A program made the translations under genes and the position numbers. This document shows, piece by piece, positions 45,332-64,000 of a stretch of DNA of 64,000 bases. Position 1 is the stretch's first letter, and the number at the start of each line of letters is the position of its first letter. Source of the stretch: Frateuria edaphi (GTDB taxonomy: Bacteria; Pseudomonadota; Gammaproteobacteria; Xanthomonadales; Rhodanobacteraceae). The notes below the pieces were generated by a model. That model ran no database searches, was not told the origin of the DNA, and saw nothing but the letters and a program-made list of their open reading frames with translations. The stretch spans positions 3,333,001 to 3,397,000 of the forward strand of contig NZ_CP088251.1 of the NCBI RefSeq assembly GCF_021117405.1, written 5' to 3'.

Positions 45332-46834
45332 CTAGAAACGCCGGTATTGCAGGGCCTCAGCCAGGTGTGCGCGATCGAGCAGAGCCGCGCCGCCGTCGAG
45401 GTCGGCGATCGATCGGGCCACGCGCAGGATGCGGTGATAGGCCCGCGCGGACAGCCCCAGTCGCTCCAGGGCCGCCTCGAACCAGCGCCGCTCGGGCGCG
45501 CCCAGCGCGCAATCGCGTTCCAGCTCGCGCGTATTGATCTCGGAATTGGCACGCCCTGCCCGGGCCAGCGCCCGCTCGCGGGCCTGGACCACGCGCGCGC
45601 GCACGGTGGCCGAGTCTTCGTCGTACACACTGCGCGGAGCCCCCAGCTCGGCGAGCGGCACGCGCGGTACTTCGACACACAGGTCGATGCGGTCCAGCAA
45701 CGGCCCGGAGATACGCCCTCGGTAGCGCTGGATCTGGTCGGGCGTGCAACGGCAACGTTCGCGGGCGTCGCCGGCATAGCCGCAGGGGCACGGATTCATC
45801 GCCGCGACCAACTGGAACTGGGCCGGGAAGGTCGCCTGCCGCGCGGCGCGCGACACCAGGATCTGGCCGGACTCCAGCGGCTCGCGCAGCACTTCGAGTA
45901 CGTGCCGGGTGAACTCGGGCAGTTCGTCGAGAAAAAGCACCCCGTTGTGCGCCAGCGATATCTCGCCCGGCCGCGGATGCGAACCGCCACCGACCAGCGC
46001 CACCGCCGAGGCGGTGTGATGCGGCGCGCGGAATGGCCGCTGGCGCCAGCGCGCCGGATCCACACGCTGCCCGGCGACCGACAGCACGGCGCAGGTTTCC
46101 AGCGCTTCGCTCTCGCTCAGCGGCGGCAGGATGCCGGGCAGGCGCGCGGCCAGCATGGTCTTGCCGGTGCCTGGCGGACCAATCAGCAAAAGGTGGTGGC
46201 CGCCCGCAGCGGCAATTTCCAGCGCGCGGCGCGCCTGCAACTGGCCGCGCACGTCGACCAGGTCGGGAACGTCCGGATCGGTTGTCTGCCCATGGTCGGC
46301 CGGGCCCGGCAGGGCGAGTTCCTGCGCGTCGCGCAACCAGCCACAGACGTCCGCCAGCGTATCGGCCACCAGTACATTGGCCTCCGGCACCAGCGCGGCC
46401 TCGGCGGCATTGGCGCGCGGCACCACTACGCGCCGGCCGCGCGCCCGCGCGCGCAGCAGCGCCGGCAACACGCCCGAGACGCCACGCAGATCACCCGACA
46501 GCGCCAGTTCTCCCAGGAACTCGCACTCGTCCAGCTTTTCGCGTGGCACCTGACCACCCGCGGCCAGGATGCCCAGCGCGATGGCCAGGTCGAAGCGGCC
46601 GCCGTCCTTGGGCAGCTCGGCCGGCGCCAGGTTCACGGTGACCTTGCGGTTGGGGTATTCGAACGCCGCGTTCTGGATCGCCACTCGCACGCGGTCACGC
46701 GCCTCGCGCACCGCAGCTTCCGGCAGGCCGACGATATGCGTGCCCGGCAGGCCGCCGGACAGATGCACCTCGACCATCACTTGCGGTGCGGAAACGCCTT
46801 CCTGGGCACGCGTGAGGGTGACCGCCAGGCTCAC
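45332..46834 (-). CDS. comM: ComM/YifB-like Mg-chelatase family AAA+ ATPase
   Basis: 500 residues. The GTG at 46834 is chosen since VSLAVTLTRAQEGV aligns directly with the start of E. coli YifB (MSLSIVHTRAALGV); the open frame upstream has no conserved residue. A Lon-like/ChlI domain (about 20-150) precedes Walker A GPPGTGKT, the LDELPEF Walker B and a C-terminal Mg_chelatase region with a CPCGYAGDARERCRC zinc finger. In naturally competent species ComM is a helicase that aids branch migration during transformation. Confidence 0.94.
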   Translation of the reverse strand: MSLAVTLTRAQEGVSAPQVMVEVHLSGGLPGTHIVGLPEAAVREARDRVRVAIQNAAFEYPNRKVTVNLAPAELPKDGGRFDLAIALGILAAGGQVPREKLDECEFLGELALSGDLRGVSGVLPALLRARARGRRVVVPRANAAEAALVPEANVLVADTLADVCGWLRDAQELALPGPADHGQTTDPDVPDLVDVRGQLQARRALEIAAAGGHHLLLIGPPGTGKTMLAARLPGILPPLSESEALETCAVLSVAGQRVDPARWRQRPFRAPHHTASAVALVGGGSHPRPGEISLAHNGVLFLDELPEFTRHVLEVLREPLESGQILVSRAARQATFPAQFQLVAAMNPCPCGYAGDARERCRCTPDQIQRYRGRISGPLLDRIDLCVEVPRVPLAELGAPRSVYDEDSATVRARVVQARERALARAGRANSEINTRELERDCALGAPERRWFEAALERLGLSARAYHRILRVARSIADLDGGAALLDRAHLAEALQYRRF

Positions 46835-47022
46835 GGCACGACCCGGGCTGACCAGGACGCGGTCGTCCCTGACCGCAACGGCTGGAGAAACACGAATGGC
46901 GGGCTCGGCCGACTTGGGGTGCCGCGGGCAGCTGGTCGCACGGTCGCGCATGACGCGTGCCGGCCGTAAGCGATGGAGTCGCCAGAATGCATGATGAAAC
47001 GCGACCCCATCGACGTCAGGCA

Positions 47023-47074
47023 AAAAATAACCGCCCCCGATCGCTCTCGGGGTGAGGTGACGGATCGGGGGCGG
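47023..47074 (-). terminator. intrinsic terminator of ubiK
   Basis: 12-bp arms CCGCCCCCGATC (47031-47042) and GATCGGGGGCGG (47063-47074). On the minus strand the hairpin is followed by TTATTTTTTG. It ends ubiK transcription, so comM downstream must have its own promoter in the 188 bases between. Confidence 0.92.
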
Positions 47075-47091
47075 CTCCCGGGAGCTGGCAG

Positions 47092-47346
47092 CTAGGGTCC
47101 GCGGGCGGCGTCCGCCTCCAGTTCGGCGACGCGCCTTTCCAGTTCGTCGACCTTGGCGCGGGTGCGCGCCAACAGTTGGCTCTGGACTTCGAACTCCTCG
47201 CGGGTGACCAGCTCGAGGCGACGCAATCCTTGCATCAGGACATCGTGGAAGTTGGTTCGCAAATCCTGCTGCGCCTGTGCCAACCCTGGCGGTACCAGCG
47301 ACACAAGTCGCAGGGCAATTCGGTCGATTTCCTGCCGATCCATCAT
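47092..47346 (-). CDS. ubiK: ubiquinone biosynthesis accessory factor UbiK (YqiC)
   Basis: 84 residues. MMDRQEIDRIALRLVSLVPPGLAQAQQDLRTNFHDVLMQGLRRL... is typical, with a C-terminal coiled coil (TRAKVDELERRVAELEAD) that joins UbiJ coiled-coil trimers. It binds UbiJ for aerobic ubiquinone synthesis; ubiJ is about 13 kb away in this window. The ATG pair at 47346 begins the domain. Confidence 0.93.
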   Translation of the reverse strand: MMDRQEIDRIALRLVSLVPPGLAQAQQDLRTNFHDVLMQGLRRLELVTREEFEVQSQLLARTRAKVDELERRVAELEADAARGP

Positions 47347-47486
47347 GGACGGCGCCTCGAGCGGGTCGGAAGGAAGTCTAGGTAACGTGAAAGGGGGTGC
47401 ACCATCGGCCGGCTCCGCCAGAGAATGTAGGGATTGTCCTACACGGCCCACTGGGGCGACAGGCCAGGGGCTGGCAGGCACAATGA

Positions 47487-47858
<372 letters not shown>

Positions 47859-47865
47859 CCGCGTC

Positions 47866-47918
47866 GGGTGGGCTTCGGCCCACCAGCGTCGCAGCGTGTG
47901 GTGGGCTGAAGCCCGCCC
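47866..47918. repeat. GGGCTTCAGCCC-family repeat after glnB
   Basis: GGGTGGGCTTCGGCCCACC (47866-47884) faces GGTGGGCTGAAGCCCGCCC (47900-47918). Lies between convergent glnB and a membrane protein gene. Confidence 0.85.
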
Positions 47919-47929
47919 TGCGTCTGGCG

Positions 47930-48451
47930 TCAGGCTTGTGTCCGCTCGAACCGCCGGTGGTGTACCAGCAAGCCGGCGTAATAGCTGACGTAGTAACCGA
48001 GCATGAGGCCGACCACCAGCAACGTCAGCGGGCTGTTGCCCAGTGGCGGCACGGTCGCAGCCATCGGGCCGGCGATACCGTCATGCGGTACCAGCACCAG
48101 GAAACGCCAGGCCAGCCGGCCCACCAGCACGGCCGTGATAGTGGCGCCGATCCATGGGTTAGGCAGGTAGAGGTCGCGACCATCGGCGCCCCGTTCGAAG
48201 CGGGTCAGGCGCAGGCCGAGCAGGCCCAGCGCGATGCCGCCAAGCAGGCCGCCTGCCAGGCCTTCGAGCAGACGCGGGTTATGCAGACCGGCAAGCGAAA
48301 GCAGGCCGGTGACCGCGAGGAGGATGGCCACGCGGGTGATCATCGCGCCGCGCCGCACCAGCTGGCGGCCAAACTGGCGACGCACGCGCCGCCACACCAT
48401 GAAGGCGAGCAGCGGCGACATCAGTGCGGGCATGAGAAGGTTCGGCGCCAT
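47930..48451 (-). CDS. DUF1453-like polytopic membrane protein
   Basis: 173 residues with about five membrane helices and a charged loop (WRRVRRQFGRQLVRRGAM). Resembles the CcdC/DUF1453 type in size and layout, which is my guess; the family link is weak and no function can be assigned. It sits alone between glnB and gpmA. Confidence 0.6.
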   Translation of the reverse strand: MAPNLLMPALMSPLLAFMVWRRVRRQFGRQLVRRGAMITRVAILLAVTGLLSLAGLHNPRLLEGLAGGLLGGIALGLLGLRLTRFERGADGRDLYLPNPWIGATITAVLVGRLAWRFLVLVPHDGIAGPMAATVPPLGNSPLTLLVVGLMLGYYVSYYAGLLVHHRRFERTQA

Positions 48452-48552
48452 GGTGAGTCTCCCTGGAGTGGCTGGGCGAAGACTAACGGTCCGTACAGTC
48501 CGATGCGATGTGGCCGATCCGGGGCCACAAATGGATTCCTGCGAAGAGCGTC

Positions 48553-49296
48553 CTACTTCGCCTTGCCCTGGTTCGCCACCGCGGCCATCTTCGCCGCGAT
48601 CGCCTCCGCATCGCCCAGGTAGTAGCTGCGCAGCGGCTTCATCTGGTCGTCGAACTCGTACACCAGCGGCACGCCATTAGGCACGTTCATCTCGACGATC
48701 GCCTCGTCGGAGATGTTGTCCAGGTACTTGATCAGCGCACGCAGCGAGTTGCCGTGCGCGGCCACCAGCACGCGCTGGCCGGAGGCCACCGACGGCGCCA
48801 GCACGTCGTGCCAGTAGGGGAGCACGCGGGCGACGGTGTCCTTCAGGCACTCGGTATCGGGAATCATCGACGGATCGAGCAGCGCGTAGCGCGGATCGCG
48901 CAGCGACGGGTTGTCGGCCCGCTCCAGCGGCGGCGGCGGGATGTCGTAGCTGCGGCGCCAGACCTTGACCTGGTCCTCGCCGTACTTCGCCGCCGTTTCT
49001 GCCTTGTTGAGGCCGGTCAGTCCGCCGTAGTGGCGTTCGTTCAAGCGCCAGTCGGTGACCACCGGAATCCACATCAGGTCCATCGCATCGAGCACGCCCC
49101 ACAGCGTGCGCACCGCGCGCTTGAGCACCGAGGTGTGCGCCACGTCGAAGGTATATCCGCCTTCCGCCAGCAGACGCCCGGCTTCCTTTGCCTCGGCCAT
49201 GCCCTGCTCGGTCAGGTCGACGTCGGCCCAGCCGCTGAAGCGGTTGTCGAGGTTCCACTGGGACTGGCCGTGGCGGATCAGGACGAGCTTGTGCAT
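48553..49296 (-). CDS. gpmA: 2,3-bisphosphoglycerate-dependent phosphoglycerate mutase
   Basis: 247 residues. Catalytic His in [12 protein letters not shown], second His in [11 protein letters not shown], and the [11 protein letters not shown] segment. Interconverts 2- and 3-phosphoglycerate in glycolysis. The C-terminal [20 protein letters not shown] tail is normal for the family. Divergent from the solenoid protein gene, sharing a 140-bp promoter region. Confidence 0.97.
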
Positions 49297-49436
49297 GGCG
49301 GCAACCTGGCAGCGGAAAACGCGAAATGGTGGGGCGCGCTCGCGACGGCGTCAAATCGCCCCATGCCGAAGGTCACGCTAAACCGCGGAGCGCGGTGGTG
49401 CATCTGATGTCCTATTCCCACGAAAGGAGCACCACC

Positions 49437-50081
49437 ATGCGCCACCTGCTCATCGCCCTCGTCCTGGCCCTGCCGCTGGCGGCGGTCGCATCGGACAACG
49501 ACGTCGACAAGATCAACGGCGATATCCGCATCGATGCCGGGCAGACCGCCGGTGAACTGAGCACCGTCAACGGCGACATTTCGCTTGCCGACGGCGCCAG
49601 CGCGCGCAAGGCCGACACGGTCAACGGCGGCATCACGCTGGGCCAGCGCGCCACCATCGGTTCGCTCAACACCGTCAACGGCGGCATCGAGCTGCGCGAG
49701 GACGCCAAGGTCAACGGCGAGATCGAGGCAGTCAACGGGCACATCGAGCTGGCCAAGGGCGCCGACGTGAGCGGACAGGTATCCAACGTCAACGGCCGCA
49801 TCGAACTGGATGCAGCGCACGTGGGCGGCGGCGTGGAAACCGTGGATGGCGACATCGACATCGGCGCCAATTCGCGCGTCGAGGGCGGCATCCTGGTCGA
49901 CAAGCCCAACGGCGGCTGGTTCCACCACAACCGTACGCCGCACATCGTGATCGGCCCCCATGCCGTCGTGCAGGGCACGCTGGAGTTCCGCCACGAAGTG
50001 GTGCTTGAGGTCAGCGACAGCGCGCAGATCGGCCCGGTGAAGGGCGCCACGCCAGTGAAGTTCAGTGGCGCGAAGCCCTAA
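49437..50081 (+). CDS. exported beta-solenoid repeat protein of unknown function
   Basis: 214 residues. AAGGAG precedes the ATG. Signal peptide ends near AVAS (residues 16-19). Then seven tandem rungs of 18-19 residues, each with the core V-N-G-x-I-x-L; the Asn-Gly (or Asp-Gly) pairs fall at 27, 45, 63, 81, 100, 119 and 137. After that comes a beta-rich C-terminal part with WFHHNRTPHIV. The even spacing points to a right-handed solenoid, similar in layout to bactofilins but exported. I know no function. Confidence 0.85.
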   Translation: MRHLLIALVLALPLAAVASDNDVDKINGDIRIDAGQTAGELSTVNGDISLADGASARKADTVNGGITLGQRATIGSLNTVNGGIELREDAKVNGEIEAVNGHIELAKGADVSGQVSNVNGRIELDAAHVGGGVETVDGDIDIGANSRVEGGILVDKPNGGWFHHNRTPHIVIGPHAVVQGTLEFRHEVVLEVSDSAQIGPVKGATPVKFSGAKP

Positions 50082-50087
50082 GGCTCT

Positions 50088-52350
<2,263 letters not shown>

Positions 52351-52540
52351 GGCGAATGGGCAGCAGATAAAACGCCAGTGTGCGCAGCCGGACGGATCGC
52401 CGCAATCGCCTGCCGCGTCCACCCGCCGAACGGCCCGTGTCCGGACTGGACTTGCAGTCACGCCGCGGAAGGATGAACCGGGCCCTCGCCCCCGAAAAGC
52501 AAGGCTAGGCAAGCCCGCGGCCCGCCGCTAGGCTGATTCG

Positions 52541-53746
52541 ATGTTGCAACCCATTGCTCCCCTGGCAGTCAGCGCCTACACCGCCACCTCCGCCCTCGGC
52601 CGCGGCCGCGAGGCGCATCGCCGCGCCATCGAGACCGCCCGCACGGGCCTGCGCCCCAACGATTTCAGCCTTGCGCCGCTGGAATGCTGGGTCGGGCGCG
52701 TCGATGGCGTCGAAGACGCGCCGTTGCCCACGCCGCTGGCGGTCTGGGAATGCCGCAACAACCGGCTGGCGTGGCTGGGCATGAACCAGGACGGCTTTCT
52801 CGACGCCGTGCATGCCGCGCGCGAACGCTACGGTGCCACGCGGGTGGCGCTCCTGATGGGCACGTCCACGGCCAGCATCGGCGCCACCGAGGAGGCCTAC
52901 CGCCGACTCGATCCCGACGGCGGCTTCCCGGAAGACATGCTGCGCCCGCCGATCCACGCGCCGCACTCGCTGGCCGGCTTCCTGGCCGAAGCGCTGCAAC
53001 TCGAAGGGCCGTGCCTGACCGTCTCCACCGCCTGCTCCTCCAGCGCGAAGGTTTTTGCCAGCGCCGAGCGCATGATTCGCCTGGGGCTGGTGGACGCCGC
53101 GCTGGTCGGCGGTGTCGACACGCTGTGCGAAAGCGTGCTGTTCGGCTTCAACGCGCTGGAGCTGGTGTCGCGCGCGCCGTGCCGGCCGTTCGACCGCGAA
53201 CGCAGCGGTATCTCGATCGGCGAGGCCGCCGGTTTCGCGCTGCTCGAACGCGTCGAGGCCGCGCCGGACGCGCCACGCCTGCTCGGTTACGGCGAGGCCA
53301 GCGACGCCCACCACATGTCCACGCCGCACCCCGAAGGCCTGGGTGCCGAACTGGCGCTGCGCGACGCGCTGGCGCGCGCGGGGCTCGCGCCAGCGCAGGT
53401 CGACTACATCAACCTGCACGGCACGGCGAGCCTGAAGAACGACGAGGTGGAGGCCGCGCTGATCGCCCGCGCCTTCCCACCGACCACGCGCGCCAGCAGC
53501 ACCAAGGGTTTCACCGGCCACACGCTCGGCGCCGCCGGCATCCTGGAGGCGGTGGTCGCCCTGCTTTCGGTCGAGCATGGCCTGGTGCCCGGCAACCTCG
53601 GGGGCGAAGATCCCGACCCGGCCTGTGGCCCGCAGTTTGCCTGGTCCAACGAAGCGCGGCCGGTCGAGGTGGCGCTCAGCAACTCCTTCGGTTTCGGCGG
53701 CAACAACGCCTGCCTCGCGTTTGCCCGTGCGGAGCGCACGGCATGA
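52541..53746 (+). CDS. beta-ketoacyl-ACP synthase of the aryl-polyene/xanthomonadin type
   Basis: 401 residues, thiolase fold. Catalytic triad in family order: Cys165 (STACSSSAK), His293 (NLHGTASLKND), His327 (TKGFTGHTLGAAG). Compared with FabF it has the short DLNP-free N-terminus of the ApeO-like ketosynthases that elongate polyene chains. It overlaps the next gene by four bases. Together with the next three genes it is probably part of a pigment pathway; acyl carrier protein, dehydratase and ketoreductase genes are not in the window. Confidence 0.88.
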   Translation: MLQPIAPLAVSAYTATSALGRGREAHRRAIETARTGLRPNDFSLAPLECWVGRVDGVEDAPLPTPLAVWECRNNRLAWLGMNQDGFLDAVHAARERYGATRVALLMGTSTASIGATEEAYRRLDPDGGFPEDMLRPPIHAPHSLAGFLAEALQLEGPCLTVSTACSSSAKVFASAERMIRLGLVDAALVGGVDTLCESVLFGFNALELVSRAPCRPFDRERSGISIGEAAGFALLERVEAAPDAPRLLGYGEASDAHHMSTPHPEGLGAELALRDALARAGLAPAQVDYINLHGTASLKNDEVEAALIARAFPPTTRASSTKGFTGHTLGAAGILEAVVALLSVEHGLVPGNLGGEDPDPACGPQFAWSNEARPVEVALSNSFGFGGNNACLAFARAERTA

Positions 53747-54540
53747 GCGCGCTCACCGTTTACGTCGACGGCGCCGGCCTGTGGTCGCCGCATCTGGCGG
53801 ACTTCGCCGCCCTGCGGGGCGCGTTGCAAGGCGAGGCCGCAAGCCCGCCACCCGCACGCCCGCCAGCCACGCTGCTGCCCGCCGCGGAGCGGCGCCGCGC
53901 GCCGGAAAGCGTGCTGCTGGCGGTCGAGGTGGCTGGCCAGGCCGTGGCAATGAGCGGACGCGAACCGGCGTCGCTGCCCTGCGTGTTCGCCTCCTCGCAT
54001 GGCGACCAGCCGATCATGGACTACATGTGCACCGTCCTGGCCAGCGCGCCGGCGGAGCTTTCGCCCACGCGCTTCCACAATTCGGTGCACAACGCGCCGG
54101 CCGGCTACTGGACCATCGCCACCGGCTGTCACGCGCCGTCCAACGCGGTGTGCGCACAGCGCGCCAGCTTCGGCGCAGGGCTGCTCGAGGCGGCGAGCCT
54201 GGCGCTGGCCGACGCGCAGCCGGTGCTGCTGGTCTGCAGCGATACCGCCGGCGCCGGCCCGCTGACCGAGGTAACCGCCAGCGCCGCGCCGTTCGGCTGC
54301 GCCCTGGTACTCAGCCCCCAGCCTGGCGCCTGCACGCTGGGCCGACTTGTTCTGCACCTTTGTCCCGGTAGCATCGCCGACGCATCGGGCGAATCCGCGG
54401 TGCCGGCCGAATGGATCGCCAGCAGCCCGTCGGCCGTGGCGCTGCCGCTGCTGGCACTGCTCGCGCAAGGCGCGGGCCGCTGCCGACTGATGGCGGCCGG
54501 CTCGCTCGGCATGGATGTCCACCTGGAGGAATGTGCGTGA
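53743..54540 (+). CDS. beta-ketoacyl synthase chain-length-factor-like protein
   Basis: 265 residues of the ketoacyl-synthase-2 type (ApeC/chain length factor-like), which pairs with an active ketosynthase. The GFHNSVHNAPAGYW and HGDQPIMDYMC segments are typical. The nucleophile position reads ATGCHAPSNA, so it may be inactive or use that Cys; this cannot be settled here. Overlaps both neighbours. Confidence 0.83.
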   Translation: MSALTVYVDGAGLWSPHLADFAALRGALQGEAASPPPARPPATLLPAAERRRAPESVLLAVEVAGQAVAMSGREPASLPCVFASSHGDQPIMDYMCTVLASAPAELSPTRFHNSVHNAPAGYWTIATGCHAPSNAVCAQRASFGAGLLEAASLALADAQPVLLVCSDTAGAGPLTEVTASAAPFGCALVLSPQPGACTLGRLVLHLCPGSIADASGESAVPAEWIASSPSAVALPLLALLAQGAGRCRLMAAGSLGMDVHLEECA

Positions 54541-55334
54541 AACCCAACCCGCCGCGCTGGTGCGTGCTGATCCCCTGCCTCAATGAAGAGGCGGCGATCC
54601 AGCAGGTGGTGGAATCGGCGCTGGCGCTGAACGTGCCGGTGATCGTGGTGGACGATGGTTCGGACGACCACACTCCCGACATCGTCGGCGCCCTGCCAGT
54701 CACGCTGTTGCGCCACGCGCAGCGGCGCGGCAAGGGCGAGGCCCTGCGGCACGGCTTCCGCGAGGCGCTGAAACAAGGCTTCGATGCGGTGGTAACGATG
54801 GACGGCGACGGTCAGCACCTGGCCAGCGACATCCCGCGCATCGTCGCGGCGGCGCAACGCTATCCGGACCACATCGTGATCGGCGCGCGCCTGCTCGAGC
54901 GCGAACAGCAGCCCAAGGGCCGCCGCCGCGCCAACGCGGTGGCCGATTGGGGCATTTCCTGGGGCTGCGGCGTGCCGGTCGCCGATACGCAGAGCGGCCA
55001 GCGCTGGTATCCGCGCGCGGCGCTGGAACTGGTCGACCTGCCCGCCGAGAACTTCGTGTTCGAGGCGGCGATCCTGATCGCCGCCTGCCGCGAGAAGGGC
55101 TTGGGCGTGGTTTCGGTGCCGATCGCCTCGCGCTACCACGGAGAGTTCCGGCTGAGCCACTTCAGCCCGGTGCGCGACGTGGTGCGCATCACCACCTACA
55201 CCTTCGGCCGCATCGTCCACTACGGCCGCATCGTCGACAGTTATCGCCGCTCGCACGACACGCCACCCATCGTCATCGACGATGAGGGCTTGCTCGCGAT
55301 CGAAACGGGCGAGCCGGCGCGGGCGACCCGCTGA
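54537..55334 (+). CDS. family 2 glycosyltransferase
   Basis: 265 residues from the GTG at 54537, chosen because GGAGGA is 6 bases away (the ATG at 54531 sits on it). GT-A fold with LIPCLNEEAAI at the N-terminus, TMDGDGQH (DxD type) and VVDDGSDDHTPD. Resembles dolichyl-phosphate-mannose-synthase-like enzymes with no membrane helices. Glycosyltransferases of this kind occur in xanthomonadin and aryl-polyene clusters, where they probably modify the lipid end. Confidence 0.88.
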   Translation: MKPNPPRWCVLIPCLNEEAAIQQVVESALALNVPVIVVDDGSDDHTPDIVGALPVTLLRHAQRRGKGEALRHGFREALKQGFDAVVTMDGDGQHLASDIPRIVAAAQRYPDHIVIGARLLEREQQPKGRRRANAVADWGISWGCGVPVADTQSGQRWYPRAALELVDLPAENFVFEAAILIAACREKGLGVVSVPIASRYHGEFRLSHFSPVRDVVRITTYTFGRIVHYGRIVDSYRRSHDTPPIVIDDEGLLAIETGEPARATR

Positions 55335-55420
55335 GCGTCCTCCCGGGGCGCTGCGACTCGACGGGATGCATGCGGGCCGCATCCGAGGCACCATCGACCG
55401 ATCAGTCGGGGGAGAGCGGC

Positions 55421-57034
55421 ATGGCGGACGCCCACACAACGCATGATGCGGTGATTCTCGGCGGCGGCCTGGCCGGGTTGTGTCTGGCCCTGCAGCTGCG
55501 CGGCGAGTTCCCCGACATGGACATCGTGGTGCTCGAGCGCCAGCGGCACCCGCTGCCGCTGGCCGCGCACAAGGTCGGCGAGTCGACCGTGGAGATCGCC
55601 GCCCACTACTTCGACCAGGTACTGGGCCTGCACGAACACCTGCAGCAGGCGCAGTTGCGCAAGTTCGGGCTGCGCATGTTCTTCAGCGAAGGCCAGGACC
55701 GCCTGGACCAATGCACGGAACTCGGCGTGAGCCGCGTGCTGCCCACGCCCAGTTACCAGATCGACCGCGGCCTGTTCGAGAATTTCCTGGGCGAGGAAGC
55801 AAGGCGGCGTGGGATCGACTTTCGCGATGGCGCGCGCGTGCGCGGTTTCGAGCTCGGGCACGAAGGCGGCCTCCACGGCGTCAGCTACAGCGACCATGCG
55901 GGCGAGCACGCCCTCGCCTGCCGCTGGCTGCTCGACGCCTCCGGCCGTGCGGGCCTGCTGCGCCATCGCCTCGATCTGACGCGCGACAACGGCCACCACG
56001 TGAACGCCGCCTGGTTCCGGCTGGACGAGCGCCTGGTGCTGGACGAATGGTGCCGCGACAACGCCGCCTGGCACGATCGCTGCGAACCGCCCGAACGCTG
56101 GCGCTCGACCAACCACCTGTGCGGCGACGGCTACTGGGTGTGGCTGATCCCGCTTTCCAGCGGCGCCCACTCGATCGGCATCGTGGCCGACGAGGCGATC
56201 CATCCGCTGGAGTCGTTCCAGGATTTCGCCCGCGCCCGGGCCTGGCTCGCACGCCACCAGCCGGCACTCTCGCGGGCCGTCGAGCGCTGCGCGGATACGC
56301 TGATGGATTTCCGCTTCCTGCGCGGCTGTTCCTACGGTTGCGCCCAGGTATTCAGCGCCGACCGCTGGGCGCTGACCGGCGAGGCCGGCCTGTTCCTCGA
56401 TCCCTTCTACTCGCCCGGCGGCGACTTCATCGCCATCGCCAACACCTACATCTGCATGCTGGTCGCACAGGACCGTGCCGGCGGGCCACTGGCGCCGTAC
56501 GTGCGGCTTTACCAGCGGCTGTACTTCTCTTTCTACGAGAGCACCCTGGCGCTCTACCGCGGCCAGTACCCGCTCTTCGGCAACCCTGTGGTGATGCCCG
56601 CCAAGGTGGCCTGGGACTACAGCTATTACTGGGGCGTGCTGTGCCAGTTGTTCTTCCAGAAGCGGCTGGGCGACGCGACGCTCTTCGCCGAGCTGGCCCC
56701 GCAACTGACCGCCGCGCAGCAATTGAACGAACGCATGCAGGCGTTCTTCGGCCGTTGGCACGCCTGCTCGGGCCAGGGCAATCCGCCCGGGCTGCTCGAC
56801 CAGTGCCAGGTCCCCTGGCTGATGGAGATCAACCGCGGACTGCGCGACACGCTGGACGATGCCGGCATAAGGTCGCGGCTGAACGCCAACCTGGCGCTAC
56901 TGCATGAAGTGGCCGGCGCGATCGCCGCGATGGCCGCGCGCGACGGCATGTCCGTGGAGGGCCTGCCCGCCTGCACCGGCCCGGAGCCGGCGCTGTTCAA
57001 TCGGGCGCCCGCGCAGGTGACCACGGTCGCCTAG
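55421..57034 (+). CDS. FAD-dependent oxidoreductase, tryptophan-halogenase-like
   Basis: 537 residues. GGGGAGAG precedes the ATG. FAD-binding GGGLAGL at the start, GESTVE near residue 45, and DPFYSPGGDFIAIANTY with the flavin-halogenase-like G-x-P pattern. The WxWxIP motif that marks halogenases is represented by WVWLIPL (about 245), which is close. Halogenase-like flavoproteins occur in xanthomonad pigment clusters. Whether it halogenates or only oxidises is not known. Confidence 0.85.
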   Translation: MADAHTTHDAVILGGGLAGLCLALQLRGEFPDMDIVVLERQRHPLPLAAHKVGESTVEIAAHYFDQVLGLHEHLQQAQLRKFGLRMFFSEGQDRLDQCTELGVSRVLPTPSYQIDRGLFENFLGEEARRRGIDFRDGARVRGFELGHEGGLHGVSYSDHAGEHALACRWLLDASGRAGLLRHRLDLTRDNGHHVNAAWFRLDERLVLDEWCRDNAAWHDRCEPPERWRSTNHLCGDGYWVWLIPLSSGAHSIGIVADEAIHPLESFQDFARARAWLARHQPALSRAVERCADTLMDFRFLRGCSYGCAQVFSADRWALTGEAGLFLDPFYSPGGDFIAIANTYICMLVAQDRAGGPLAPYVRLYQRLYFSFYESTLALYRGQYPLFGNPVVMPAKVAWDYSYYWGVLCQLFFQKRLGDATLFAELAPQLTAAQQLNERMQAFFGRWHACSGQGNPPGLLDQCQVPWLMEINRGLRDTLDDAGIRSRLNANLALLHEVAGAIAAMAARDGMSVEGLPACTGPEPALFNRAPAQVTTVA

Positions 57035-57049
57035 TACCCGCAAGGCAAT

Positions 57050-57097
57050 GCAGGACACTGTGCTCCGGGCGCGACCGGAAACCGGCCGCGCCACGGA
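57050..57097. repeat. GCGCGACCGG hairpin repeat between convergent genes
   Basis: GGGCGCGACCGGAAACCGGCCGCGCC: GCGCGACCGG/CCGGCCGCGC arms. A diverged member of the GCGCACC..GCGACCG family at 25885, likely ending the convergent flavoprotein and DPP IV transcripts. Confidence 0.55.
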
Positions 57098-57105
57098 TCG
57101 ATCCC

Positions 57106-59430
57106 TCAGTCCTTCGGCACCGTGATCGCGTAATCCTTCGGCGGCGTGTTGCCGGCGAGGTTCGTCACGAAGTAGTCCCAGCGCCGGCGCATGGCGTAGG
57201 AGCCCTTCTCCTTGCCGTAGCCGTGGTGCACGTTGGGAATCAGCAGCAGGTCGAAGTCCTTGTTCGCCTTGATCAGCGCATCGGCGACCAGCAGCGTGTT
57301 GGACGGCGGCACGTTGTCGTCCAGCGTGCCGTGCACCAGCATCAGCTTGCCCTTGAGGTTGGCCGCGTGGTTCTGGTTGGCCTGGTCGTCGTAGTTGGTG
57401 GTGCCGTCCTTGTTCGTGACCAGCGGGCCCTGATACTTCTCGGCCCAGTCGTCCTCGTAGTTGCGGTTGTCGTGGTTGCCGCTCTCGGACCAGCCGACCT
57501 TGAAGAAGTCGGGATAGCGGAACATCGCATCCGCCGTGGCGTTGCCGCCGCCGGAATGGCCCCAGATGCCCACGCGGCCCAGGTCGATCCATGCATAGCG
57601 CTTGCCCAGTTCCTTGAGGCCCGCGACCTGGTCGGGCAGCGTGTTGTCGCCCATGTTGCCGTACCAGGCGTCGTGGAAGGACTTGGAGCGCCACGGGGTG
57701 CCCATGCCGTCGATCGCGACCACGATGAAGCCGAGCTCCGCCAGCGACTGGTTATCGCCCCACGACGAACGGAAATTGCGGCCGGGGACCGAGCCCGTCT
57801 GCGGGCCGGGATAGATGTAGTCGACGATCGGGTACTTCTTGTGCGGATCGAAGTGGGTTGGCTTGAACATCACCCCGTAGAGATCGGTCTTCCCGTCACG
57901 CGCCTTGACCGTGACCGGAACCGGCGGCACCCAGCCGGCCGCGCGCAGACGGCTGATGTCGGCCTTGGCAACGGTGGCGAGCGTGTGGCCATCACCGCTG
58001 TCGCGCAGCACGGTCACCGGCGGCTCGGTCGGGGTCGAGTACGTGTCGACGAAGGCATGGCCGTCGGGCGAGAGGGTGATCTCGTGGTTGGCCGCCTCCG
58101 GCGTCAGCAGCACCGGCTTGCCGCCATCGAGGCCGACCTTGAAGAACTGCTGGTAGTACGGATTCACGCCCGGGGTGCGACCGACCCCGCGGAACCACAC
58201 GGTGCGCGTCTTTGGATCGACCTTGAGCACCTCGGTAACGTTGCCTTCGCCGGTGGTGATCGCGTGCTTGAGCTTGCCGGTCTGGAGGTCGTACAGGTAC
58301 AGGTTGCCCCAGTCGTTGCGCTCGGAGAACCAGATCGCCTCGTGGCTCTCGGGCAGGTAGAACCAGTTGACCTGGCCGTTGCCGCTCTCGTAGTAGGTCG
58401 GCACGTGCTCCTCGAACACGGTGCGCACGTCACCGGTCTTCGGGTCGGCGATGCGGAACCATTCGTCCTTGTGGTAGCGCGAGGTGGACACGAAGGCCAG
58501 CGTCTTGCCGTCGGGCGCCCACTTCACGTCGTCCCAGCCGCCTTCGGGACCGCAGCTGACGTCGTCGCACAGCGTCGAGCGATGCTGGTCCGGCGCCATC
58601 TTCAGGCGCACGACCTTCTTCGAGGGCACGTCGATGACGACGCGCTCGATCATGGTCACGTCCTTGTCGCCCGCCAGCGGGCCCTTCCACTGCTGCAGCT
58701 CGGAGTGGCCGACCTGCGTCTTGAGCAGGTACATGTCGCCGGTCTTGCGCTCGTCCTGCTGGAAGGTGGCGATCTGCTTCGAATCGGGCGACCACACCAG
58801 GATGGCGTTGTCGGTGTGCTTCCAGCCGGCGTTGTCGGTGGCGTAGCCGAAGTTCTTCACCCCGTCGGTCGTGAGCTGGGTTTCCTTGCCGCTGGCGACG
58901 TCGCGCAGCCACAGGTTCCAGTCGCGGATGAAGGCTTCGCTCTTCTTGTCCGGCGAAAGCACGCCAGGCTCCTTGCCGGCCTTCTTCGCCACGCACTCGC
59001 CCTGGGCGGACTTGAGGTCGCACAGGTAGTGCTTGCCGCTGAACTGGACGTCCAGGCGGCCGTCGGCGGCGACCACGTACTCGCGGATGCCCAGCTTGTC
59101 GGCCTTCACCGGCTTGGCCAGCGCCTTGCCCAGCGCGGCGGCCAGCCGGGGATGGTCGAACGCGTCGGACGCCTTGCCGGTCGCCGCATCCATCACGCGG
59201 TAATGGTCGCCCTTGGCATCGTGGTCGACGTACCAGAAATGGCCATCGTCCAGCCACGTCACGCCCTGCAGCGCGTGATCGACCAGCGGCGCGGTGGTGG
59301 TGCCGAGAAAGCGCTCCGCGCGTGCGTAGTCGTCCCTGGTCAGCGTGTGGCCCTGCGCCAGTGCGCCGGTGGCCACCAGGGCCAGTGCCAGCGCGCCTGC
59401 CAGGCGCGAGCTGCCGATCATCGATGCCAT
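57106..59430 (-). CDS. dipeptidyl-peptidase IV-type serine peptidase (S9)
   Basis: 774 residues. Signal peptide (about 1-25), eight-bladed propeller domain (about 40-500), and an alpha/beta-hydrolase domain with Ser626 (GHSGGG), Asp705 (HGTLDDNV) and His736 (VHHGYG). Periplasmic enzyme that cuts X-Pro dipeptides; it may continue the work of the secreted proteases encoded at 15-19 kb. Divergent from the glutathione transferase gene. Confidence 0.95.
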   Translation of the reverse strand: MASMIGSSRLAGALALALVATGALAQGHTLTRDDYARAERFLGTTTAPLVDHALQGVTWLDDGHFWYVDHDAKGDHYRVMDAATGKASDAFDHPRLAAALGKALAKPVKADKLGIREYVVAADGRLDVQFSGKHYLCDLKSAQGECVAKKAGKEPGVLSPDKKSEAFIRDWNLWLRDVASGKETQLTTDGVKNFGYATDNAGWKHTDNAILVWSPDSKQIATFQQDERKTGDMYLLKTQVGHSELQQWKGPLAGDKDVTMIERVVIDVPSKKVVRLKMAPDQHRSTLCDDVSCGPEGGWDDVKWAPDGKTLAFVSTSRYHKDEWFRIADPKTGDVRTVFEEHVPTYYESGNGQVNWFYLPESHEAIWFSERNDWGNLYLYDLQTGKLKHAITTGEGNVTEVLKVDPKTRTVWFRGVGRTPGVNPYYQQFFKVGLDGGKPVLLTPEAANHEITLSPDGHAFVDTYSTPTEPPVTVLRDSGDGHTLATVAKADISRLRAAGWVPPVPVTVKARDGKTDLYGVMFKPTHFDPHKKYPIVDYIYPGPQTGSVPGRNFRSSWGDNQSLAELGFIVVAIDGMGTPWRSKSFHDAWYGNMGDNTLPDQVAGLKELGKRYAWIDLGRVGIWGHSGGGNATADAMFRYPDFFKVGWSESGNHDNRNYEDDWAEKYQGPLVTNKDGTTNYDDQANQNHAANLKGKLMLVHGTLDDNVPPSNTLLVADALIKANKDFDLLLIPNVHHGYGKEKGSYAMRRRWDYFVTNLAGNTPPKDYAITVPKD

Positions 59431-59571
59431 CGTGTCTTCCCCTTTTGAGGACCTGCGAAATAGGCCGATCGTAACGTGCCCAAAGTCATGGCACCCATGC
59501 CATTAGTGGGGGGCGTTGACGTCGCGGACGTCGCGCCGCCACGCTCTCGCCTTCCCCTCCCGGAGCGCGCC

Positions 59572-60315
59572 ATGGCTTTCACCGTGATCGGCAACTACGT
59601 CTCGCCCTACGTGCGCAAGGTGCTGGTGTGCATGGAGCTGAAGGGGCTCTCCTACGAGATCGACCCGATCGCGCCGTTCATCGGCGACGAGGCCTTCGAG
59701 CGCATGAGTCCCCTGCGCCGCATCCCGGTACTGATCGAGGACGGGCGCGTGTTCAACGATTCGACGGTGATCTGCCAGTACCTGGAGGACATCCATCCGC
59801 ACCCCGCGCTCTATCCGGCCGATGCGGCCGATCGTGCGCGTGCGCGCTGGCTGGAGGAGTACGCCGATACCGCCCTGGCCGATGCGCTGATCTGGCGACT
59901 GTTCTATCAGAAGGCGATCCGCCGCTACGTGTTCGGCGAAGCCACGGACGAGGCGGTGGTGCAGGAGACGCTGGAGCGCCACATTCCGCGCGCACTGGAT
60001 TACCTGGAGGCGCAGTTGCCGGCCGACGGCTTCCTGTTCGGCAGCCTGTCGATCGCCGACATCGCGATCGCCTGCATGTTCAGGACGGCAGCGTTCGTGC
60101 GCTTTGCCATCGATGCCACGCGGTGGCCGCGCAGTGCCGCGTTCGTGGAGCGCGTGCTGGCGCTCGAACCTTTCCGCAAGCTGGCGCAGTTGGAGGACGC
60201 GATGCTGCGCCAGCCGCTGGCCGAGCAGCGCTCGGCACTGGCCGCGGCCGGCGCGCCGTTGACGACGCACACCTTCGGCACCGCGGTTCCGCGGCATGGC
60301 TTGCCGCGCATGTGA
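59572..60315 (+). CDS. glutathione S-transferase family protein
   Basis: 247 residues from the ATG at 59572 (GGAG upstream). N-terminal thioredoxin-like domain (YVSPYVRKVLVCMEL, with SPYVRKV as the catalytic loop; RRIPVLIEDGRVFNDS, FNDSTVICQYLE) and a helical C-terminal domain (about 90-200) with FLFGSLSIADIAI. A longer open frame extends upstream but has no homology. The 30 extra C-terminal residues are low-complexity. Specific substrate unknown. Confidence 0.88.
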   Translation: MAFTVIGNYVSPYVRKVLVCMELKGLSYEIDPIAPFIGDEAFERMSPLRRIPVLIEDGRVFNDSTVICQYLEDIHPHPALYPADAADRARARWLEEYADTALADALIWRLFYQKAIRRYVFGEATDEAVVQETLERHIPRALDYLEAQLPADGFLFGSLSIADIAIACMFRTAAFVRFAIDATRWPRSAAFVERVLALEPFRKLAQLEDAMLRQPLAEQRSALAAAGAPLTTHTFGTAVPRHGLPRM

Positions 60316-60345
60316 CGCGCCCTCGCGAGGATGGCCTCACCCGCC

Positions 60346-61260
60346 CTACCGGCCGCGGTCGCCGAACTGCAGCGCCGCCCGCTCGACCAGCCAGTCGACG
60401 AATACCCTCAACCGCGCGGGCATCTGCCGTTGCGGCGGATAGAGCACCGTCATCGGCAACGCCGGCGGCCGGATGTCCGGCAACAGCTCGCACATGCGCC
60501 CATCGGCCAGTTCGTCGGCAATGCGGTAATGCGAGAACTGCGCGATCCCCAGCCCCGCACGGCAGCACGCCAGATACGCATCGGCGCCATTGACCGTGAC
60601 GCGCCCGGGCAGCTGGATCTCGCGTCGTCGCCGGCCCACCACGAACTCCAGCGGCTCGGGCCGGCGCGTGGTGGGCGAAGCCCAATGCACCGCGTAGTGC
60701 CCGTCCTGCAGATCTACCAGCGCCTTCGGCTTGCCATGCCTTCGCACGTAGTCGGCGCTGGCCACGGTGATCTGCGGCAAGGTCGCGATACGCCGCCCGA
60801 CCATGCCGATGTCCCCCGGGTCACCTACGCGTAACGCGCAGTCCACGCCTTCGCGCACCAGGTCGACGAAGCGGTCGCCGGTGCCCAGGTCCAGTTCGAT
60901 CTGCGGGAAACGCGCGAGGAATTCCGGCAGCGCCGGGATCACCAGCAGCCGCGCCAGCGCTGCCGACAGGTCCACGCGCAGCCGCCCGCGCGGCACGATC
61001 GCCGCCTCGCGGAAGTTCGCCTCCACCTCGTCCACGTCCGCGAGCAGGCGCACGCAATGCTGGTAGTAGGTCTTGCCTTCGCAGGTCACGCGCACGCGAC
61101 GGGTGGTCCGCTGCAGCAGTTGCGCACCCAGCCGTGTCTCCAGCGCCTTGATGGTGTGGGTGACGGTGGCGCGCGGCAGCACCAGGTCGTCCGCCGCGGC
61201 GGTGAAGCTGCCCAGCTCGACGATGCGGGCATAGAGCCGCATGGCATGCAGGCGATCCAT
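60346..61260 (-). CDS. LysR family regulator divergent from an aldo/keto reductase
   Basis: 304 residues. Winged helix (MRLYARIVELGSFTAAADDLVLPRATVTHTIKALETRLG) and an effector domain of the LysR type with the typical GLGIAQFSHYR tail. Shares a 117-bp promoter region with the divergent aldo/keto reductase, which it probably controls. In that gap GGAAAGGTGT (61274-61283) and ACACCTTCC (61333-61341) form an imperfect inverted repeat. Confidence 0.92.
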   Translation of the reverse strand: MDRLHAMRLYARIVELGSFTAAADDLVLPRATVTHTIKALETRLGAQLLQRTTRRVRVTCEGKTYYQHCVRLLADVDEVEANFREAAIVPRGRLRVDLSAALARLLVIPALPEFLARFPQIELDLGTGDRFVDLVREGVDCALRVGDPGDIGMVGRRIATLPQITVASADYVRRHGKPKALVDLQDGHYAVHWASPTTRRPEPLEFVVGRRRREIQLPGRVTVNGADAYLACCRAGLGIAQFSHYRIADELADGRMCELLPDIRPPALPMTVLYPPQRQMPARLRVFVDWLVERAALQFGDRGR

Positions 61261-61377
61261 TGTTGTTCTCGATGGAAAGGTGTTGTCGATTATTGAGCAT
61301 TTATCGCAGCGCCGCCGGCGCGCACGATGTGCACACCTTCCACGGCGTAGGTTCGCCATCCCACCAGGAGCAGTCTT

Positions 61378-62370
61378 ATGGAAATGCGCACGCTCGGCCG
61401 CAACGGCCCCCAGGTTTCCGCCCTCGGCCTCGGCTGCATGGGCATGAGCGACTTCTACGGCGCGCACGACGACGCCGAGTCGATCGCCACCATCCAGCAC
61501 TCGCTCGACCGCGGTGTCACGCTGCTGGACACCGCGGACATGTATGGCCCGCACACCAACGAGGAACTCGTCGGCCGTGCGATCAAGGGTCGCCGCGACC
61601 AGGCCTTCATCGCCACCAAGTTCGGCATCGTGCGCGATCCGGCCAATCCGTCGGCGCGCGGCGTCAACGGCAGCCCGGAATACGTGCGCTCTTCCTGTGA
61701 GGGCAGCCTCAAGCGCTTAGGCGTAGAGACGATCGACCTCTACTACCAGCACCGCGTCGATCCCAGCGTGCCGATCGAGGAAACCGTCGGCGCCATGGCA
61801 GAGCTGGTGAAGGCGGGCAAGGTACGCTACCTGGGCCTTTCCGAAGCCTCCGGCCAGACGCTCACGCGTGCCTGCACGGTGCATCCGATCGCCGCGCTGC
61901 AGAGCGAGTTCTCGCTGTGGACGCGCGACCCGCAGGAGAACGGCATGCTCGCCGCCTGCCGTCGGCTCGGCGTGAGCCTGGTTGCCTATTCCCCGCTGGG
62001 GCGCGGTTTCCTCACCGGCGCGATCCGCTCGCCGGACGATTTCGAAGCCGACGATTTCCGCCGCCACAACCCCCGCTTCCAGGGCGAAAACTTCGTCCGC
62101 AACCTGGCGCTGGTCGACGAGGTGAAGAAGCTGGCCGCCGACAAGGGCTGCTCGCCCGCGCAACTGGCGCTGGCCTGGGTGCTGGCGCAGGGCGAGGACG
62201 TGCTGGCCATCCCGGGCACCCGCCACCGTTCACGGCTGGACGAGAACCTGGGTGCGCTGGACGTGCGGCTTTCCACGAGCGAACGGGCGGCAATCGATGC
62301 CGTGTTCCCGCCCAACGCGGCGGCAGGCGAGCGCTATGCCGGTCCATCGATGCAGATGATCAACGCCTGA
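61378..62370 (+). CDS. aldo/keto reductase
   Basis: 330 residues. [17 protein letters not shown] (Asp and Tyr), IATKFGIV (Lys) and YYQHRVDP (His) are the catalytic positions. Resembles the YakC/Yajo-like group ([24 protein letters not shown]). A second aldo/keto reductase gene in the window is at 26003. Likely regulated by the divergent LysR protein. AGGAG lies nine bases before the ATG. Confidence 0.93.
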
Positions 62371-62383
62371 CACTGCCTTGAAG

Positions 62384-62406
62384 CCCTCTCCCCGCCGGGG
62401 AGAGGG
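62384..62406. repeat. CCCTCTCCCC palindrome before queF
   Basis: Perfect CCCTCTCCCC-GCC-GGGGAGAGGG, followed by TTTGCGTGAGG. It is the simplest complete copy of the family seen at 10719-10893 and could end the aldo/keto reductase transcript or lie in the queF leader. Confidence 0.85.
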
Positions 62407-62455
62407 TTTGCGTGAGGTGCCGGAGGGGACAGGGCTAAAAGCTACACTTGCCGCC

Positions 62456-63280
62456 ATGAGCACCCCCGAACATTCCCCTCTCGGCAAGACCACCCTCTAC
62501 GCCGACCGCTACGACCCTTCCCTGCTGTTCCCGATCCCGCGCGCACAGAAGCGCGTCGAAATCGGCGTGATCGAACCGCTGCCGTTCAGCGGCGTGGACA
62601 TCTGGAACGCCTACGAGCTTTCGTGGCTGGACGCACGCGGCAAGCCGCAGGTAGCGCTGGCCGAATTCCGCGTGCCGGCCGCCTCGCCCGACATCATCGA
62701 ATCGAAGTCCTTCAAGCTGTATCTCAATGGCTTCTCCCAGGAGCGGACCGAAGCCGCCGCCCTGCACGACACGCTGGTGCGCGATCTTTCCGCCGCCGCC
62801 GGCGCTCCGGTGGAAGTCGCCTTGCGCGCGCCCTCCGCGCAGGGCCACGCGATCACCGACCTCCCAGGCACGCTGCTCGACGACCAGCCTCTGGAGATCG
62901 ACGACTACGGCCCGCCCAATGCCGGCTACCTGAGCGCCGACCACAATGCCGCCCCGGTGGAGGAAGCCCTGCTCTCGCACCTGCTGCGTTCGAACTGCCC
63001 GGTCACCGGCCAGCCGGACTGGGGTAGCGTGCAGATCGCCTACCGCGGCGCGCCGATCGACCAGGCCGGACTGCTGCGCTACCTGGTGTCCTTCCGCACC
63101 CATAACGAATTCCACGAACAGTGCGTCGAGCGGATCTTCGTCGACCTGATGGCGCGCTGCGCGCCCGAGCGATTGACCGTCTACGCGCGCTACACCCGTC
63201 GCGGGGGGCTGGACATCAACCCCTTCCGCAGCACCGATCCGGCGGCCATGCCGGACAACCCGCGCACGGCGCGCCAGTAG
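62456..63280 (+). CDS. queF: NADPH-dependent 7-cyano-7-deazaguanine reductase QueF
   Basis: 274 residues, the bimodular (YqcD/QueF long) type. Catalytic Cys181 in [15 protein letters not shown] with Asp188, the [16 protein letters not shown] motif with its Glu, and [10 protein letters not shown]. Reduces preQ0 to preQ1 for queuosine in tRNA. No preQ1 riboswitch was seen in the short leader, which is mostly a palindromic repeat. The ATG at 62456 has a weak ribosome site. Confidence 0.97.
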
Positions 63281-63382
63281 CACGCAGGCGGGCGCCCGGT
63301 AATCGGCGCTTCAGATCGGGGGCGCTAGCCTTTTTGCCTGGCCGTTTTTTAGGCCCCTCGATACTTGCCACGGGTACCCGCC

Positions 63383-63976
63383 ATGAAGATCCAGACTCGC
63401 TCGCTCGCCCTGCACGGCATGGCCTTCGCCGGCCTGTTGCTGCTCGCCGCCTGCGGCAAGCATGAGAACGAAGCCGCCACCACGCCGCCGGCCGCGAGCA
63501 CGGTGCCGTCGCCGGCCGTGGCGCGCACCGCCCCCGCACCGGCCACCTCCACCCCGGCGCCCGCCGCTGCGCGCAGCACCGCCGCACCAGCGGCTGCAGG
63601 CACCAGTGCGGCTGCCGCCCCTGCGGCCACCGACGTGTTCAAGGTCGACCAGGTGCAACTGGGCGAATCGGTCACCGCCGGCTACAAGATTGCCAAGCCG
63701 ACGACCTCGTTCGACGCCTCGCAGAACACCATCTACGCCAGCGTCGCCACCATCGGTACCACGACCGGCGCCACCCTGAGCGCGCACTTCAGCTATCTGG
63801 AGGGCAAGGGCCAGGACGTGACCACCATCAGCCAGACCATCGCCACCGATGGCCCGGCCACCACCACCTTCAAGCTGCGCAATCCGAACGATTGGCCGGC
63901 GGGCAAGTACAAGGTGGAGATCGCCATCGACGGCAAGCCGGTGACGAGCGAAACCTTCGAGGTGAAGGCGGCCTGA
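63383..63976 (+). CDS. lipoprotein with Ala/Pro/Thr linker, function unknown
   Basis: 197 residues. Lipobox LLAAC with Cys24. An Ala/Pro/Thr-rich linker (about 30-85) is followed by a compact domain of about 110 residues with beta strands (VDQVQLGESVTAGYKI ... GKYKVEIAIDGKPV), resembling an Ig-like or C-terminal binding domain. I know no family. The ATG at 63383 is not preceded by a strong ribosome site; the gene stands alone. Confidence 0.75.
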   Translation: MKIQTRSLALHGMAFAGLLLLAACGKHENEAATTPPAASTVPSPAVARTAPAPATSTPAPAAARSTAAPAAAGTSAAAAPAATDVFKVDQVQLGESVTAGYKIAKPTTSFDASQNTIYASVATIGTTTGATLSAHFSYLEGKGQDVTTISQTIATDGPATTTFKLRNPNDWPAGKYKVEIAIDGKPVTSETFEVKAA

Positions 63977-64000
63977 GGCGGCCGCCAGGCAGTGCTCTTT

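Follow-up and report, generated by a model that had tools for sequence, protein, structure and literature searches.

The ketosynthase-halogenase operon of Frateuria edaphi is very probably one half of a xanthomonadin-type aryl polyene cluster parted by a large inversion

The xanthomonadin-like pigment of Lysobacter enzymogenes requires a ketosynthase (KS), a half-size chain-length factor (CLF), an acyl carrier protein (ACP), and a ketoreductase (KR); without its XanB2 homologue, some 90% of the pigment is lost, and supplying 3-hydroxybenzoate reverses the loss (PMC3691225). The legend of Figure 5 in that paper describes the KS-CLF pair as conserved, accompanied by genes for dolichyl-phosphate mannose synthase and sometimes for a halogenase (PMC3691225). 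According to an in silico report, xanthomonadin is also encoded by Luteibacter flocculans (PMC9965599). Here, we describe a locus encoding a KS, a CLF-like protein, a GT2 glycosyltransferase, and a flavin-dependent halogenase in a 64,000-nucleotide stretch of Frateuria edaphi DNA (NZ_CP088251.1, positions 3,333,001 to 3,397,000; hereafter, the window). The original prediction, made from these letters, took it for a detached polyene-type locus, either part of a split pathway or a small new pathway borrowing partners from fatty-acid synthesis. We consider it very probable (roughly 0.93) that the four genes are one half of an ordinary xanthomonadin-type aryl polyene cluster, whose other half was moved away from it by a large inversion.

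The window genome shares with L. enzymogenes OH11 the KS (ORF17), the half-size CLF (ORF16), and the dolichyl-phosphate-mannose-synthase-like gene (ORF15), along with an ACP, KR, two dehydratases (DH; weakly matching candidates in F. edaphi), acyltransferase (AT), LolA-like protein, exporters, and XanB2 homologue; OH11, however, has a single cluster without a halogenase and a non-brominated pigment (PMC3691225). The Xanthomonas xanthomonadin cluster has the same gene set, including a XanB2-type chorismatase and a halogenase, though there, unlike in the window genome, the genes form one cluster (PMC3949708, PMC3691225). In Azoarcus sp. BH72, as in F. edaphi, polyene genes with a halogenase lie in two unlinked loci (the arcuflavin arc loci), and insertion in either gives colourless cells; the division differs, however, with KR, one DH, the chorismatase, and the halogenase accompanying the KS and with the ACP, ligase, and exporter in the other locus, and the polyene genes are combined with dialkylresorcinol genes (PMC3949708). 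A heterodimer of KS and half-size CLF is likewise represented by ApeO-ApeC of Xenorhabdus doucetiae (6QSP), with a complex also reported from Acinetobacter baumannii (PMC8358021); the clusters of these species additionally have ApeR and two ACPs, whereas a PF00109 search of the window genome gave no ApeR-type KS. With the Azoarcus loci unlinked, contiguity does not define the pathway, and splitting is therefore compatible with function and not new as a phenomenon. The F. edaphi genes do not form one contiguous cluster; on a circular chromosome, some 443 kb would separate their two blocks, and a ligase gene stands by itself. No description of the Frateuria split was found among the matches listed in a literature search of titles and abstract openings.

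As the original prediction had it, partner genes are missing locally: by eye, no ACP, DH, KR, chorismatase, or exporter is present among the open reading frames (ORFs) of positions 46,000-64,000, and genome-wide family matches to FabA, ACP, and MMPL all fall outside the window (no genome-wide search was made for KR or chorismatase). The alternative of a split pathway was borne out, with an ACP, dehydratase-type proteins, a KR, a chorismatase, and an exporter all on the same chromosome, which is a single contig (C1) of 3,769,403 bp. Family searches located an ACP gene, an MMPL exporter gene, and, at a score under the cut-off, a FabA-like gene close to one another around 57-62 kb of C1, and a simple gene caller run on that stretch gave the block listed in Table 1. 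It is flanked upstream by glmU and ATP synthase genes and downstream by BlaR1-type peptidase and penicillinase-repressor (BlaI-like) genes. In the search of the rest of the genome that had been proposed, ACP and XanB2-type chorismatase were found, the latter at 186 bits against TIGR04444, under the cut-off of 325, while the dehydratase-type proteins stayed below Pfam cut-offs. The candidate ligase for the starter lies 23 kb from the chorismatase gene, and a match to it was found in 20/20 genomes searched, the window genome included. Among Rhodanobacteraceae (family f1), this gene is at least 20 kb from the pigment blocks or on another contig in 16 of the 17 genomes searched, the distance in G110 being 9.7 kb from the KS; in genomes G101, G195, and G175 of family f2, it lies 7-8 kb from the MMPL gene.

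We compared these neighbourhoods across 250 genomes of the order. The KS search matched 136 genomes, of which the 78 with at least 59% identity were used and 58 weaker ones left out; the MMPL search matched 115, and 68 with at least 44% identity were used (one piece each for G105 and G249). Both markers occur in 67 of the 78 KS genomes. They lie within 15 kb of each other in 57/67, on opposite strands and convergent in every one of the 57. The usual left part reads YifB-GlnK-GpmA-HemF-YdcF followed by KS>CLF>GT2>(halogenase>), and the usual right part <KR<ApeP<MMPL<LolA<AT<FabA-like<membrane protein<ACP, then XanB2>, <GlmU, and atp genes (the flanking genes are named after the family matches of their counterparts in the window genome). 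Both blocks thus form one convergent cluster in relatives, which is the comparison that the original prediction had called for; its own refuting case for a detached locus, a cluster whose remainder is adjacent in relatives and simply rearranged, is what we found. In the other 10 of the 67, the markers are further apart on one contig (6 genomes) or on different contigs (4 genomes); these include the window genome, G184, and G022, and all but G055 and G219 were read. Six of the 11 KS genomes lacking such an MMPL match were read as well (G194, G234, G224, G095, G210, and G174).

The relatives also bear on two rival origins of the locus. In a small new pathway, KS, CLF, GT2, and halogenase would make a separate halogenated glycolipid with the ACP, KR, and DH of fatty-acid synthesis; the four genes are indeed alone locally, and the genome has FabF-, FabB-, and FabA-type genes. 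Dedicated ACP, KR, dehydratase-type proteins, chorismatase, and exporter nevertheless exist and adjoin the same genes in relatives, which speaks against borrowed partners, and searching the genome turned up no further KS of the window type; this part of the original prediction is not supported, and the new pathway is highly improbable. The KS family search did return a second KS at 1744563, named FabB-like from its FabA neighbour, and a match at 1838360 that was rejected as a thiolase; the ACP search returned one ACP other than that beside FabF. Separate gain of the operon by horizontal transfer would suit the patchy halogenase (39/80 loci) and an operon G+C content of 0.69-0.73, slightly above most flanking kilobases (0.66-0.70). 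It is contradicted by the left flank YifB-GlnK-GpmA-HemF-YdcF, which is kept in relatives with a contiguous cluster and makes the YdcF-like gene the ancestral left neighbour, and by a KS that groups with the host lineage. Together with a plasmid search that gave no near match, the conserved flank and the only slight G+C excess rule out a recent foreign or plasmid origin, and we give horizontal gain next to no chance.

Parting by inversion, in contrast, accounts for both sites. In the window genome, G184, and G022, all of one genus, the halogenase gene converges with DPP IV at one site and KR converges with BlaR/BlaI at the other. The KR end of the main block occupies, in relatives, the place of the spacer that follows the halogenase. 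DPP IV and BlaI were searched for in 18 genomes: 10 of the neighbouring genera g4, g11, g13, and g15, in which KS and MMPL are within 15 kb; 5 of g8; and 3 of the split genus. In 9/10 of the neighbouring-genus genomes, DPP IV and BlaI are convergent and 2.0-5.2 kb apart, as confirmed by reading three of the nine (L126, L127, and L128); in the tenth, G130, BlaI gave no match. The former junctions A-B and C-D are replaced by A-C and B-D, oriented as expected from a single inversion, and this reciprocal adjacency therefore indicates one inversion of about 443 kb. On a circular chromosome, the inverted segment of the window genome would measure 442,993 bp; that of G184 is about 365 kb long. In a tree of five concatenated proteins, the five split Frateuria loci form one clade (support 90/86), with the contiguous Frateuria metagenome-assembled genome (MAG) L047 just outside. 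The two spacer regions, taken with 60-bp margins and in either orientation, have no 10-mer in common, and therefore no repeat explains the inversion.

We then examined the four genes themselves. Coordinates, strand, the 4-bp overlaps (KS/CLF via ATGA and CLF/GT2 via GTGA), and the 86-bp gap between GT2 and halogenase are all as originally described, and Pfam confirmed the flanking genes, a DUF218/YdcF-like gene on the left and DPP IV on the right. The same order and overlaps recur in relatives, and the arrangement is therefore not due to chance. Matches above the respective Pfam cut-offs were obtained to Ketoacyl-synt N and C, Ketoacyl-synt_2, Glycos_transf_2, and Trp_halogenase, and the KS scored 499.9 bits against NCBIfam PRK09185 (cut-off 407); an NCBIfam scan of the CLF gave no match. 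Among solved chains, the KS is closest to 6qsp_A and the CLF to 6qsp_B, with the two chains of 7f28 coming next (7f28_A for the CLF); from its chains and the mention of its code in PMC8358021, 7f28 is taken to be the A. baumannii complex. In a tree of 21 KS, drawn midpoint-rooted and with a program warning on long branches, the window KS clades with the ApeO-like KS of Escherichia coli CFT073 (100/100), falls within a 14-row xanthomonadin-type subclade (98/98), and stands apart from host FabF, host FabB, and the ApeR-like KS; the CFT073 names were assigned from gene position and place in the tree. The KS is thus of the ApeO type by both tree and solved relatives, in line with the polyene-type placement originally proposed. 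Its active-site residues C165 (CSSS), H293 (HGT), and H327 (GHT) are invariant in 100/100 aligned KS; at this site, CSSG replaces CSSS in two MAGs, L077 and L089. Among 85 CLFs, no glutamine is invariant (Q139 in 33, Q66 in 79, and Q89 in 76).

The closest solved relatives of the halogenase are CmlS (3i3l) and halogenase 3e1t. Over 52 aligned sequences, WxWxIP is present in 52/52, GGGxAG in 48/52, and K81 (KFG) is invariant; we take WxWxIP, GxGxxG, and a conserved Lys to mark flavin-dependent halogenases, K81 presumably being the catalytic one. Halogenase identity is 67% in Frateuria STR12 vs 87-94% in the other split Frateuria, and no halogenase was found in L047. Some relatives (L125, L132, and L039) encode another flavoprotein with weak similarity to halogenases (26-29% identity), its gene placed either between those for XanB2 and ACP or directly behind the ACP gene; it was not seen in the block of the window genome. 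A scan of positions 52,300-57,300 found no promoter-like sites and 3 terminator-like sites vs 2.4 expected from shuffles, which is no signal.

A pathway that died when the blocks separated would leave the four genes as decaying relics, and in-frame stops do occur in halogenase genes at 5/52 aligned loci elsewhere. In the window, however, all four ORFs are open, and their active-site residues are intact. Simple NG86 estimates, made without a test over three genomes of the genus, gave dN/dS values of 0.08-0.20 for the four genes and 0.02-0.30 for the main block, like the 0.09-0.18 of the comparison genes HemF, GlmU, and DPP IV; YdcF gave 0.42-0.47 vs G022, over 66 codons only. As dN/dS is low for either half, the pathway seems to be maintained, and these sequence comparisons suggest that it is still used. 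We regard decay as very unlikely.

Several points weigh against a functional cluster parted by one inversion. The support is genomic, and the 443 kb figure holds only for a circular chromosome. Just three genomes, namely the window genome, G184, and G022, were read at both broken junctions, and in G022 the blocks are on different contigs; Frateuria sp. STR12 and F. flava show the halogenase-DPP IV side only. The tree support for a single origin is moderate. In the g8 genomes, DPP IV and BlaI are at least 277 kb apart (four genomes) or on different contigs (one), and their adjacency is therefore not family-wide. Both dehydratase-type proteins score below Pfam cut-offs and are identified largely by where their genes lie within the block. 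Finally, Q166, reportedly essential to the Lysobacter CLF, could not be placed, the nearest candidate being Q139.

Table 1. Features of the two blocks and their surroundings; plain coordinates refer to the window and those with the prefix C1 to the contig of the same genome.
Feature	Coordinates	Strand	Evidence
YdcF-like (DUF218) ORF, longest possible start; outside pathway	51649..52512	-	Pfam, relatives
KS, ApeO/xanthomonadin type	52541..53746	+	Pfam, NCBIfam, PDB match, tree, conserved residues
Half-size CLF-like protein, ApeC type, 265 aa	53743..54540	+	PF13723, PDB matches
GT2 glycosyltransferase, dolichyl-phosphate-sugar-synthase-like, GTG start	54537..55334	+	Pfam, NCBIfam
Flavin-dependent halogenase, ATG start at 55421	55421..57034	+	Pfam, PDB matches, motifs
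Spacer, 71 bp, would hold inversion breakpoint 1	57035..57105	.	Neighbourhoods in relatives
DPP IV gene, outside pathway; probably put beside halogenase by inversion	57106..59430	-	Pfam, relatives
Candidate starter AMP ligase, alone between topA and purD	C1:31685-33091		Family scan
XanB2-like chorismatase	C1:56175-57167	-	PF21168 118.6 bits, cut-off 27
ACP	C1:57257-57526	+	PF00550 36.9 bits, cut-off 20.8; PRK09184 135 bits, cut-off 70
Membrane protein, no family match	C1:57597-58316	+	
FabA-like, dehydratase-type	C1:58313-58618	+	21.6 bits, cut-off 23
AT	C1:58615-59568	+	Family scan
LolA-like	C1:59492-60130	+	Family scan
MMPL exporter	C1:60133-62466	+	Family scan
ApeP-like, dehydratase-type	C1:62450-62890	+	21.7 bits, cut-off 27
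KR	C1:62887-63624	+	PRK05653.1-5 331 bits, cut-off 273

A survey of 80 loci showed how the junction between the convergent operons fares more widely. The cluster is contiguous at 60 loci, has DPP IV next to it at three (Frateuria sp. STR12, F. terrea, and F. flava), and five are too short to tell, which also applies to the halogenase count above. Twelve loci have no convergent block within 10 kb: at L115, the block is next to the operon, though in inverted orientation; at L059, L071, L080, and L116, its place is taken by other genes; and seven are betaproteobacterial and may be too distant for the reference proteins used. L059, L071, and L080 (Rhodanobacter) share their new neighbours, a Crp-family regulator and HemN-like genes (scanned in L059), and L116 has yet another neighbour. 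The Rhodanobacter break is apparently an independent separation. We tentatively propose, at somewhat short of even odds, that the meeting point of the convergent operons is a recurrent and tolerated break point, used in Frateuria, the Rhodanobacter group, and possibly L116, G053, G225, and G003. In L034, L035, L036, L037, L042, and L043, the ACP, FabA-like, AT, ApeP-like, and XanB2 genes are kept beside the KS operon, and the 20 kb that were read gave no match to MMPL, LolA, or KR; a number of genomes of this kind have an additional KS with an MMPL, a more distant pair that may supply the missing functions. L060, a record titled Frateuria (Soil773), is labelled with a different genus, and its cluster is contiguous.

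From these data, we can postulate how the pathway would work. XanB2 would produce 3-hydroxybenzoate, and the AMP ligase would put it onto the dedicated ACP. The four window genes would form an operon for elongation, sugar transfer, and halogenation, in which the KS-CLF heterodimer would elongate the starter repeatedly with malonyl units; KR and the two dehydratases would create the conjugated double bonds, and the flavin halogenase may add bromine to the aryl ring. The AT, GT2, LolA-like, and MMPL proteins would attach the pigment to a carrier and carry it to the outer membrane. The product would probably be a xanthomonadin-type pigment, provided that both blocks are still expressed. In an ancestor of Frateuria, a single inversion would have detached the operon, one breakpoint falling in the spacer where the halogenase and KR genes converge and the other between DPP IV and BlaR/BlaI; no operon lost its 5' end, and therefore both halves could keep working in trans.

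Collectively, these results remove a candidate new pathway and explain how it arose. A gene-cluster search would see two fragments in Frateuria, though the pathway looks complete. What remains of interest is that this junction seems to have broken more than once. Should pigment output prove unchanged, Frateuria would provide a clean natural test that an aryl polyene pathway can do without clustering when operons are cut at a shared 3' boundary. If the break is truly recurrent, these genomes would form a natural series for asking if the output of a type II polyketide pathway depends on its genes being clustered, and would raise the further question of whether the detached operon for elongation and halogenation has gained regulation of its own.

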